Below are positions 8,274 through 50,788 of a stretch of 64,000 nt of DNA, in pieces. A program made the translations under genes and the position numbers. Each line of letters starts with the position of its first letter. Positions within the stretch are counted from its first letter, which is position 1. Origin of the DNA: Dysgonomonadaceae bacterium PH5-43. GTDB lineage: Bacteria; Bacteroidota; Bacteroidia; Bacteroidales; Azobacteroidaceae. The notes below the pieces were generated by a model that made no database searches, had not been told where the DNA came from, and worked only from the letters and a program-made list of their open reading frames with translations. Location: positions 1-64,000 of the forward strand of contig JARXWK010000001.1 in assembly GCA_029916745.1 (NCBI GenBank). Reading direction: 5' to 3'.

Positions 8274-8709
8274 TAAATTCTTCTTTATCTATATATACAA
8301 CTTCTATTCCTGCCCTTTCTAAAAGTTCGATTCCATCGTTTAAGCGATACTTTTCGGAGTACACAATTCTCTTTATGCCAGCTTGTATTATAAGTTTAGC
8401 ACATTCGATACAAGGAGATGCAGTTACGTATAGAGTTGAGTTTTTACTGTTATTGTTAGAACAAGCTATTTTAGTTATAGCGTTTGCTTCGGCGTGAAGA
8501 ACATAAGGTTTAGTAACACCCGAATCATCTTCACAGATATTTTCAAACCCAGCAGGGGTTCCGTTATATCCGTCAGAAATTATCATCTTATCTTTTACTA
8601 TTAGAGCTCCAACTTGTCGGCGCTCACAATAAGAGTTTTCGGCCCATATTGTAGCCATTCTTAAGTATCGTATGTCTAAACGTTTTTGTTTCTTCATTGA
8701 ATTATTCAT
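8263..8709 (-). CDS. dCMP deaminase (ComEB-like)
   Basis: This zinc-dependent deaminase converts dCMP to dUMP for dTTP synthesis. The zinc and catalytic motifs are HAEAN (about residues 72-76) and PCIEC (about 99-103); there is also the NGTPAG substrate loop typical of dCMP deaminases. The frame opens at a TTG (8715), but the ATG at 8709 is preferred; a further ATG lies at 8697. A -7 box (TACATTTG) at 8729-8736 gives the pair deaminase-protease its own promoter. It overlaps the protease start by 11 bp. Confidence 0.9.
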   Translation of the reverse strand: MNNSMKKQKRLDIRYLRMATIWAENSYCERRQVGALIVKDKMIISDGYNGTPAGFENICEDDSGVTKPYVLHAEANAITKIACSNNNSKNSTLYVTASPCIECAKLIIQAGIKRIVYSEKYRLNDGIELLERAGIEVVYIDKEEFNEI

Positions 8710-8728
8710 ATACAATGGATTTGAAGCG

Positions 8729-8736
8729 CAAATGTA
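8729..8736 (-). promoter_or_regulatory. Promoter -7 box for dCMP deaminase / S41 protease
   Basis: The minus strand reads TACATTTG, an exact TAnnTTTG, 20 bp upstream of the deaminase ATG. Confidence 0.6.
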
Positions 8737-8763
8737 CGAATAAAAGAATAATCTTAGAAAGTA

Positions 8764-9291
8764 TTACTCATTATTTATTTGCTGCATAAAGTAAACATCA
8801 GAAAATCCGTTAGATGTTTTTATCCAATCTTTTAATAATCCACTGTCTATGTAGCCAGCATTTGTAAATAACCTGCGACTGGGAGCGTTGCTTACAGGTA
8901 TAAAGGCGTAAAGTTGTTTTAATAATAAAAAACGGAAAGCATATTCTTTCATTAACTCAAGTGCTTGCAGCCCAAAACCTTTATTTCTGTAGTCGGCATC
9001 TAAAAGAATACCTACTCCGGCTCTTAAGTTAAGAGGTTCAAAATCGTATAAATCGATAGTACCAATAGCTTTGTCGGAAGCTTTTTCTACAATCATAAGT
9101 CGTAGTTGTCTGGTTTGAAATATATCTTGAGTAGAACTTGATAGGTATTCACGTAAAGCAAACTTAGAGTAGGGGGTTAACGTAGAACCATAATTCCACA
9201 GAGATGAATCGTTTTCCCATTTATAAAGAGCGTCTAAGTCTTCCGGCTCCAATGCTCTTAACAAGATGTTTGTGTTTTCTAAAAGAGACAT
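8764..9291 (-). CDS. GNAT family N-acetyltransferase (RimJ/SpeG-like)
   Basis: This is a 175-residue acetyl-CoA-dependent acyltransferase. The fold markers are the N-terminal LLRALEPEDLDALYKWEND, the acetyl-CoA pyrophosphate-binding loop region DYRNKGFGLQAL (in place of the usual R/QxxGxG/A) and the C-terminal RLFTNAGY. Its overall pattern is that of the RimJ/RimL or polyamine (SpeG) type; the substrate cannot be told from sequence. It starts 5 bp after the recQ stop and is likely the last gene of recJ-recQ-GNAT. Confidence 0.85.
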   Translation of the reverse strand: MSLLENTNILLRALEPEDLDALYKWENDSSLWNYGSTLTPYSKFALREYLSSSTQDIFQTRQLRLMIVEKASDKAIGTIDLYDFEPLNLRAGVGILLDADYRNKGFGLQALELMKEYAFRFLLLKQLYAFIPVSNAPSRRLFTNAGYIDSGLLKDWIKTSNGFSDVYFMQQINNE

Positions 9292-13068: not shown

Positions 13069-13166
13069 TTTGAAATTTACGCACGTACGAAAATTTATTT
13101 TCAGACGTACGTAAATTTATTTCCAGACGTGCGTAAATTATTTTTCGTACGTGCGTAAATTTCAAA
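13069..13166. promoter_or_regulatory. Operator-like array: 25-bp perfect inverted repeat with four ACGTRCGT sites
   Basis: The arms at 13069-13093 and 13142-13166 are perfect 25-bp reverse complements. Between them are two more copies of the core (ACGTACGTAAAT from 13105, ACGTGCGTAAAT from 13127). With the right arm (ACGTGCGTAAAT from 13149) these make three direct copies at exactly 22-bp spacing, plus one inverted copy in the left arm. The right arm covers the expected -33 region of the downstream promoter (-7 at 13176). This looks like cooperative binding sites for a regulator of the PBP1A gene and possibly recJ. Confidence 0.65.
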
Positions 13167-16920: not shown

Positions 16921-16942
16921 AGTATTCAAACAAATAAAATTG

Positions 16943-17286
16943 CAGTTGGTTGATAAGCCGGATTCTGTTACTCCCGAAAGAGTCATCTGTCATTTATCTA
17001 GATTTGTTGTCGCCAACAAACTCAAGCAATCTACCCCCCGACATCGGACGAGTAATCCTACATACGTCGGTATACATGATTTTGCAACCCCTAAGTTGTA
17101 CGGCTTCCTATATTGCTATAAGAACCGGTGAGCTCTTACCTCACCTTCTCACCCTTACCTTAAAAAGGCGGTTATTTTCTTCTACTTAACTCTGCTCTCG
17201 CAAACAGCTATCCGTTAGATAATAGGGCACTCTGTGTTGTCCGGACTTTCCTCTTCTCTGAGAGAAGCGACAGATTAACCAACTAC
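16943..17286 (-). ncRNA. rnpB: RNase P RNA (bacterial class A)
   Basis: The minus strand carries the universal RNase P elements in order: GAGGAAAGTCCGGAC near the 5' end, a GCGAGAGCAGAGTTAAGTAG-type segment, GGTAAGGGTGAGAAGGTGAG, and ACAGAATCCGGCTTAT near the 3' end. The ends pair as helix P1 (AGTTGGTT with AACCAACT). A TACCTTTG box at 17294-17301 places the 5' end near 17286; the 3' end is approximate. It processes tRNA 5' ends with the RnpA protein, which is not in the window. Confidence 0.93.
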
Positions 17287-18552: not shown

Positions 18553-18579
18553 CTTAATAAAAGGAGGCAAAAAAGTTAA

Positions 18580-18826
18580 TAGATACTCCGTGTCTCTCTA
18601 CTAAGAACACCCTTCTCGTTATTACTAAAGAGGCGAGTTGCTTCTTAGTAGATACCCCTCGTCGTTCTTAGTAGAGACCCGATGCCGCTCTTAGTAGAAC
18701 CGCCCCGCCTTTATACTTAAGACACCCCGTCTTTCTACTAAGAGACACCTCGCCTATCTACTAAGAGAGAGAAGGGGTCTCTTAGTAGAAAGACGACCCT
18801 AAGTGAAGCTTTGCATTTTCAGGAGA
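18580..18826 (+). repeat. 23-bp-unit intergenic element, copy 1
   Basis: There are about ten consecutive units of 21-24 bp. Each starts with the core CTTAGTAGA or its partner CTACTAAGA (sometimes degenerate, as in TACTTAAGA) and continues with a GC-rich spacer such as TACCCCTCGTCGTT, GACCCGATGCCGCT or GACACCTCGCCTAT. The last two cores form a perfect 11-bp hairpin (18758-18768 with 18778-18788, 9-nt loop). The element ends with AAGTGAAGCTTTGCATTTT and AGGAGA (18801-18826). Copies 2 and 3 lie at 33499-33795 and 50391-50660. No ORF fits it. I do not recognise the family. Confidence 0.8.
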
Positions 18827-33344: not shown

Positions 33345-33498
33345 CTACATGACTCATGCAATTACTAATACAAATGTATTAATTTATTCAACAACTAAAC
33401 AAATAACTACAATAAAAAGATTATTATTGTGGCTTATTTAGAATGATTGCTAAATAATACAAGAGATTTTTGTATACTAATATTGATGTGAAAATAAT

Positions 33499-33795
33499 CT
33501 TAGTAAAATGATTGCTAAGAAGTTATTAGCCCCCTCTCCTTTCTTATTAGATACCCTTTGCCTTTGTTACTAAATAGGCGAGTTGCTTCTTACTAGATAC
33601 CCCCTGTTGCTCTTAGTAGATACCCCTTGCCGTTCTTAGGAGATACCCGATGTCGCTCTTAGTAGAACCGCCTAATCTCTCTTAGTAGAACCACCCCGTC
33701 GTTCTTAGTAGAGAGACATCGCCTCTCTTAGTAGAGACACGAGGGGTCTCTACTAAGAGAGAAGACCCAAAGTGAAGCTTTGCATTTTTAGGAGA
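33499..33795 (+). repeat. 23-bp-unit intergenic element, copy 2
   Basis: This is the longest copy. It has degenerate units at the 5' side (CTTAGTAAAATG, GCTAAGAAGTTATTAG) and then about ten units with spacers TACCCCTTGCCGTT, TACCCGATGTCGCT, ACCGCCTAATCTCT, ACCACCCCGTCGTT and others. The last pair of cores forms a perfect 14-bp hairpin (33725-33738 with 33746-33759, 7-nt loop). The tail AAGTGAAGCTTTGCATTTT and AGGAGA (33770-33795) is identical to copy 1 but for one base. It ends 8 bp before the promoter of the CotH gene. A 12-mer AATGATTGCTAA occurs at 33442 and 33507 just before and in its start. Confidence 0.8.
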
Positions 33796-50114: not shown

Positions 50115-50390
50115 AATATTTTTTAATACACACACAAATATATAGCAACTATTCAGCAAAAGCTTTTTCTTTTTTTCCTATTTCACCCAAATTCTCGACA
50201 TTTTTTCTACTTACTTATTTTTACAATACTTCTCTTTTTTCTATTATTTTGATATTATCGACCCTTTGTGTCATTTAAGAGAGGGATCAAGAGAGTAAGC
50301 AAACTACCCCCAATAGGCAACTATCTGGAATCTCTTAACTCTCGGAGAAGAGCGTAAAAGTGAGCGACTGGATAAATGGACGGCTATACA

Positions 50391-50660
50391 TCTCTTACGA
50401 AGCACTCCGATGCTCTTGGTAGAACACCCTCGTGTCTCTTAGTAGATAGGCGAGCAGGTTCTTACTACAGACCCCTCGCCTTTGTTAGTAGATAGGCGAG
50501 CTGCTTCTTAGTAGAGACCCGATGTCGCTCTTAGTAGAACCTCCCCGTCGTTGTACTTAAAGCACCCTGTCGTTCTTAGTAGAGAGACCTCGCCTATCTA
50601 CTAAGAGACACGAGGGGTCTGTAGTAAGAGAGACGACCCTAAGTGAAGCTTTGTGTTTCA
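50391..50660 (+). repeat. 23-bp-unit intergenic element, copy 3
   Basis: About ten units with the same spacers in the same order as copy 1 (TAGGCGAGCTGCTT, GACCCGATGTCGCT, ACCTCCCCGTCGTTG, GAGACCTCGCCTAT, GACACGAGGGGTCT), but one 23-bp unit fewer after the GGCGAG unit. The tail GACGACCCTAAGTGAAGCTTTG (split at 50632-50653) is identical to copy 1 over those bases. The core before GACCTCGCCTAT is CTTAGTAG here but CTACTAAG in copy 1. Confidence 0.8.
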
Positions 50661-50661
50661 C

Positions 50662-50712
50662 AAGTTAAAAACTAAAAGATAAAAACTAAAAGTTAGCGCG
50701 AAGCGAAGCCAA
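50662..50712 (+). repeat. TTAAAAACTAAAA-family dispersed repeat
   Basis: AAGTTAAAAACTAAAAGATA followed by AAAACTAAAAGTTAGCGCGAAGCGA matches the arms at 2177-2220 and (reversed) 2311-2350, including the GCGCAAAGCGA-type end. It follows element copy 3 directly. A further imperfect GC-rich hairpin (GAGATGTGGC / GCCGCGTCTC, 50728-50749) lies before the stop of the TolC-like gene. Confidence 0.6.
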
Positions 50713-50788
50713 TCGCAATGCACAGTAGAGATGTGGCGTGCCGCGTCTCCAGAGATAAGGTGAGCGAAACAGATTAAATATTATTTTT

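Follow-up and report, generated by a model that had tools for sequence, protein, structure and literature searches.

A probably MITE-like element with ordered 23-bp palindromic arrays, dispersed in the intergenic gaps of a Bacteroidales genome

Gene-free gaps in bacterial chromosomes may hold repeats whose kind has to be established. Three such gaps in a stretch of 64,000 nucleotides from Dysgonomonadaceae bacterium PH5-43 (contig JARXWK010000001.1, positions 1 to 64,000; hereafter the window) contain ordered arrays of units of about 23 bp, and the question is what kind of element these arrays belong to. An earlier note, made from the letters of the window, described them as an unrecognised element and named a mobile non-coding element, a protein-binding scaffold and a multi-hairpin RNA as candidates. 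We consider it probable that they belong to a high-copy, non-autonomous MITE-like element that carries a palindromic minisatellite and has the architecture of BrickBuilt, with terminal repeats and a core of its own.

The three window copies are present at the positions first described, with the ordered units and the tail, and their parts are listed in Table 1. The sites stand, but the array starts are corrected to about 18575, 33522 and 50415. The array of copy 3 is likewise real, but it belongs to a longer element, which opens at 50144 with a terminal repeat and extends to about 50761; a 3′ terminal repeat was looked for in this copy and none was found, so that it has a 5′ end only. None of the three elements overlaps an open reading frame of 100 aa or more, which bears out the earlier remark that they contain none. 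Copy 1 has a DUF418 protein on one side and a helix-turn-helix protein on the other; copy 2 lies between a protein of no confident family and a CotH protein that bears a sorting tail, and copy 3 between a protein without assignment and an efflux protein of the outer membrane. Elsewhere in the window, at 2181-2207 and 2318-2348, heptad runs (CTAAAAA / CTTTTAG) resemble the tail of the long element, with no adjoining 23-bp array.

Table 1. Parts of the three window copies, with positions in the window
Feature	Position	Strand	Remarks
Copy 1 array, leaderless form	18575..18800	+	ordered ~23-bp units, cores CTTAGTAG / CTACTAAG
Copy 1 invariant 3′ joint AAGTGAAGCTTTGCATTTT	18801..18819	+	followed by AGGAGAAAA, the 3′ block of leaderless forms, to ~18837
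Copy 2 upstream block GAAAATAATCTTAGTAAAA	~33491-33521	+	5′ of array
Copy 2 array, leaderless form	33522..33769	+	ordered 23-bp units
Copy 2 3′ joint AAGTGAAGCTTTGCATTTT	33770..33788	+	
Copy 3 5′ terminal inverted repeat AGCAACTATTCAGC	50144..50157	+	long form
Copy 3 leader	50158..50414	+	85-92% identity to other long-form leaders
Copy 3 array	50415..50640	+	ordered 23-bp units
Copy 3 3′ joint AAGTGAAGCTTTGTGTTTC	50641..50659	+	
Copy 3 heptad (AAAAACT) tail and shared segment GCGAAGCGAAGCCAATCGCAATGCACAGTAGAGA	50660..50761	+	

A whole-genome search, proposed earlier as a check, finds many further copies. The exact tail AAGTGAAGCTTTG occurs 73 times in the genome (0 for the reversed control), and the exact pair CTTAGTAG-N15-CTTAGTAG, that is, two cores at 23-bp spacing, 190 times (0 for the reversed control pattern). 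In total, at least 82 elements are present in the genome (2.54 Mb, 46 contigs). They were counted in 387 kb, comprising the window, the remainder of its contig and stretches round the pattern sites, and 82 is a lower bound because the search patterns are exact. An extra leader with a single core only, at C29:8342, lies beyond the 82. The single orientation described for the window copies holds locally but not genome-wide, as 36 copies lie on the plus strand and 46 on the minus strand.

The order of the spacers was read by cutting the copies backwards from the tail in 23-bp steps, and with this anchoring it is common to the copies. The arrays are therefore unlike a CRISPR, as had been proposed, since their spacers recur at different loci in the same order and are not locus-unique. 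Most arrays have 8-12 units; their mean pairwise identity is 78% and their G+C content 46%, against 35% for the window. The middle of the array exists in two versions, TAATCTCT in 31 copies and TACTTA in 39. The array is also one large inverted repeat, since its right spacers AGACACCTCGCCTAT and AGACACGAGGGGTCT reappear on the left in reverse complement, as ATAGGCGAGGTGTCT and AGACCCCTCGTGTCT. At its 3′ side stands the joint, which a single pattern recovers in 81 of the 82 copies; an exact 13-mer of the joint is found in 73/82, whereas no array 13-mer exceeds 72%, and where the exact tail word is missing, CCCTAAGTGAAGCTTT or a single close variant of it is still present. The sequences 3′ of the joint fall into heptad repeats, a AGGAGAAAAATAC block, a TATAAAG block and others.

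Predicted RNA folding of the arrays beats that of shuffled sequences on both strands where tested (z -4.5 to -7.3), and folding of the array as DNA is 5.9 standard deviations better than that of shuffles. Rfam gives no match to the elements at the gathering score; with further copies present and no RNA family of the database matching, neither outcome that the earlier note named as a refutation came about. Within the window, Rfam matches nothing but the class A RNase P RNA at 16938-17286 (-). Highly stable predicted folds on either strand, in copies that are always intergenic and in several cases lie just past a gene end, would suit a regulatory multi-hairpin RNA that is co-transcribed with its neighbours and stabilises or ends transcripts, as REP/BIME elements do. 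Such a role is unlikely, however, as the inverted-repeat make-up by itself suffices for stable folds, and the last three cores vary in orientation with no hint of compensation. Nor do the flanking genes set the orientation: the copy shares the strand of its left gene in 39 of 69 cases and of its right gene in 33 of 69, and the 69 gaps (22 convergent, 31 same-direction, 16 divergent) have no clear gene-end bias.

The orientation of the copies is random not only relative to flanking genes but also relative to neighbouring copies (same in 28 cases, different in 22; p 0.24) and to the GC skew of the flanks (p 0.95). A replichore- or strand-linked (KOPS-like) function was considered and rejected, as orientation is unlinked to GC skew or neighbours.

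More is learned from the longer copies. Among the 81 joint-bearing copies, 31 have a leader (near-complete in 17, at ~270 bp from the terminal repeat on) and 32 a heptad tail; 22 have both and 40 neither. The order of the long form is a terminal repeat GTAACTATTCAGC, an AT-rich leader (~250 bp), about 8-12 units, the near-invariant joint AAGTGAAGCTTT, the heptad tail and the inverted terminal repeat. The leader begins with AGTAACTATTCAGC, whose reverse complement closes some tails. Sites of AGTAACTATTCAGC with at most one mismatch number 12 in the genome, of which 11 are at these elements and the twelfth is within apparent coding sequence. When the ends are taken as GTAAC...GTTAC, both are readable in four copies; C7 was left out, its 3′ end match being spurious. 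Three of these four two-ended copies are flanked by 8-bp direct repeats, namely AAATATTT/AAATATTT, AATTTAGG/TATTTAGG and TGACAATA/TAACAATA, which agree at 8/8, 7/8 and 7/8 positions, whereas 20 unmatched left-right pairs used as a control agree at 0-4/8. As regards the general features of a MITE, terminal inverted repeats are thus found in the long form only, and target-site duplications in three of the four long copies that can be evaluated.

At least 82 dispersed copies in random orientation, together with a long form that has terminal inverted repeats and 8-bp duplications, back the mobile non-coding element among the options named at the outset. The long form may have been moved in trans, via its ends, by a DDE-type transposase that has since been lost from the genome or is unrecognised. 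No autonomous element with matching ends was found in the genome, where such ends occur only at these elements, and a parent transposase was not found among the families sought there, IS66 (PF03050) and Y1 (PF01797), both of which are absent. The 8-bp duplication and the GTAA ends suggested IS66 as the parent, a candidate that was rejected because the genome has no IS66 transposase (PF03050).

The leaderless majority is less easily accommodated. Its ends, 5′ ATTGCTRTA and 3′ TACARCAA, are weak and no more than suggestive, and target duplications are not demonstrated for it. Furthermore, both terminal repeats occur in four copies only, and the joint is more highly conserved than movement of the long form would by itself demand. 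These points stand against the MITE-like reading, which we nevertheless prefer. Array, joint and tail behave as modules that occur in different combinations, and the 8-bp cores stand in both orientations between identical flanks; the leaderless copies could be long forms that have shed a leader or tail, or else recombination between copies could have moved their arrays.

Absence of Y1 also bears on a further possibility, that of a REP/REPIN-like element dependent on a RAYT (Y1, HUH) transposase for its movement. The core CTTAGTAG carries GTAG, a tag that marks one REP superfamily (PMC3733652), and adjoins partly palindromic spacers; palindromic intergenic units with GTAG in the core are what the element has in common with REP, BIME and REPIN sequences (PMC3733652). 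It differs from them in its long ordered arrays with terminal repeats and in a genome without the Y1 transposase (PF01797). Ordered arrays of more than 200 bp, terminal repeats and target duplications are foreign to REPs, and most units of two sister array families described below lack GTAG, which makes this origin highly unlikely.

The oddest feature of the element is that the core is turned round on the spot while its flanks stay as they are, and that there are hardly any intermediates. Of the CT-N4-AG centres at the last unit boundary, 53 read TAGT, 22 ACTA and 2 something else, and the flanks are alike in the TAGT and ACTA groups (GGGGTCT on the left, AGAGACGACCCT or close variants on the right). 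As TAGT and ACTA differ at all 4/4 positions, stepwise mutation should leave intermediates; a single inversion within the palindrome TCT-N4-AGA explains the swap. At the next boundary (ACTA 45, TAGT 18, CAGT 13), the TAGT group has different flanks, so whole-unit exchange also plays a part. The simplest route to a clean flip is hairpin formation with template switching, and a site-specific recombinase is possible. More generally, the dyad-rich array might extrude hairpins at replication, with the result that units expand, contract and invert by slippage or template switching.

Dyad arms that are kept while the centre flips are also what a symmetric site predicts, and the near-invariant joint fits the same idea: the core and the TCT-N4-AGA dyad would be the site of a dimeric protein, and the arrays would organise the chromosome. 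This is improbable, given that an orientation or replichore pattern is absent, that the 23-bp period is out of phase with the helix and that the element is confined to one lineage. Any host function of the element is putative.

Returning to the MITE-like element, its closest counterpart is BrickBuilt of Porphyromonas gingivalis, which has a 23-nt unit, a leader of up to 285 nt, a tail of up to 318 nt and 19 intergenic copies; a minority of its copies have ends, its predicted stem-loops are long and it has no transposase (PMC4596501). The two are alike in belonging to Bacteroidales, in a 23-nt tandem unit, part of it conserved and part variable, in similar leader and tail lengths, in being always intergenic, in small terminal inverted repeats that a minority of copies carry, in long predicted stem-loops, in having no transposase remnant and in being limited to one or two species. 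They differ in their terminal repeats, GAGACCTTTGCA / TGCAAAGGTCTC in BrickBuilt (PMC4596501) and GTAACTATTCAGC here, and in copy number (19 there, at least 82 here); ordered spacers and inverted units are found here, and the duplications are 8-bp here and variable there. The BrickBuilt unit is published as a figure only, and the evidence against a shared unit sequence is indirect: a one-genome-per-species scan, presuming that the species was included, found no Porphyromonas with three CTTAGTAG cores at 23-bp spacing. The element works like BrickBuilt yet does not qualify as a member, because its ends differ and its core was not found in Porphyromonas. The word "unrecognised" in the earlier note is thus right for the sequence but not for the kind, as the plan of leader, 23-nt array and tail is that of BrickBuilt (PMC4596501). 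In short, the sequence and several details are new, and the kind of element is already known.

To our knowledge, no elements of this kind have been known outside P. gingivalis and P. gulae. BOX of Streptococcus pneumoniae, whose middle unit is longer, at about 45 bp, parallels the modular array more distantly. BOX shares end modules round variable tandem middles, high copy number and strong folding, but it belongs to another phylum and has another sequence (PMC3049150).

The sequence of the element is narrowly distributed. The array consensus has no match among 40 other genomes of the genus or 392 other genomes of the order, and the double core is absent from the order sample too. Among 41 genomes, the leader is confined to the source genome, save for one other genome with a weak match of 30 bases. 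With one genome per species, three CTTAGTAG at 23-bp spacing match 11 genomes, some of them outside Bacteroidales, with unrelated spacers. Cross-species conservation of the core was rejected on these grounds: since the spacers are unrelated and the order sample is empty, the 11 foreign matches are probably chance or independent arrays. Viral contigs gave 0 matches to the joint and 3 short matches to the double core. No empty orthologous site was readable, the gene left of copy 1 having only distant homologues (at most 44% identity), in one relative.

Other arrays of similar period occur in the same genome. A second 23-bp family, with units built on GTTTCA...TGAAAC, is found at C1:65738-65841, C1:145767-145894, C11:57598, C29:26901 and L155 (C29) 8671-8817; the last of these stands in the place of the CTTAGTAG array, between a leader with a single core and a heptad tail. 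A 22-bp dyad-rich family, ACGTACGTAAATTTATTTTCAG, lies at 13083-13162 in the window, C1:74136-74237 and C1:137675-137851. In sampled sequence of other Bacteroidales amounting to about 1.2 Mb, leaving out five loci of the source genome, array counts by period were 7 (22 bp), 9 (23 bp), 8 (20 bp), 2 (19 bp) and 1 (25 bp), or 6 (22 bp), 6 (23 bp) and 2 (20 bp) for arrays of at least 2.5 units, in a sample that is small and has no outgroup. Several of the 22-23-bp arrays have dyads and recur within one genome. Unrelated arrays of this period are seen at L163 100-340 (which also has an inverted unit), L177 9075-9269, L190 8231-8298 and 9647-9736, and L232 737-1291 and 19005-19100. Arrays of 41 bp appear twice in other Bacteroidales (L179 11897-12130; L199 3630-3738), with the period of the PgRS repeats of P. 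gingivalis; the BrickBuilt paper mentions repeats of 22 and 41 nt in that species (PMC4596501).

The pattern in this Bacteroidales sample is a lead only, because the sample is small and without outgroup. Tentatively, there might be a broad and so far undescribed Bacteroidales class of dispersed intergenic 22-23-bp dyad arrays, with this element as a lineage-specific case, in which the period is kept, the sequence is replaced between species and the cores invert, all through one common polymerase, recombinase or transposon process; we regard this as possible but rather doubtful.

With this element the BrickBuilt-type plan reaches a further lineage of Bacteroidales, in which the ends are unrelated, the copies more numerous and the target duplications clearer. 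Its copies, at least 82 in number, are a large natural data set on the expansion and inversion of palindromic arrays. Should the 22-23-bp period prove general in the order, many gut bacteria may have the same machinery at work.
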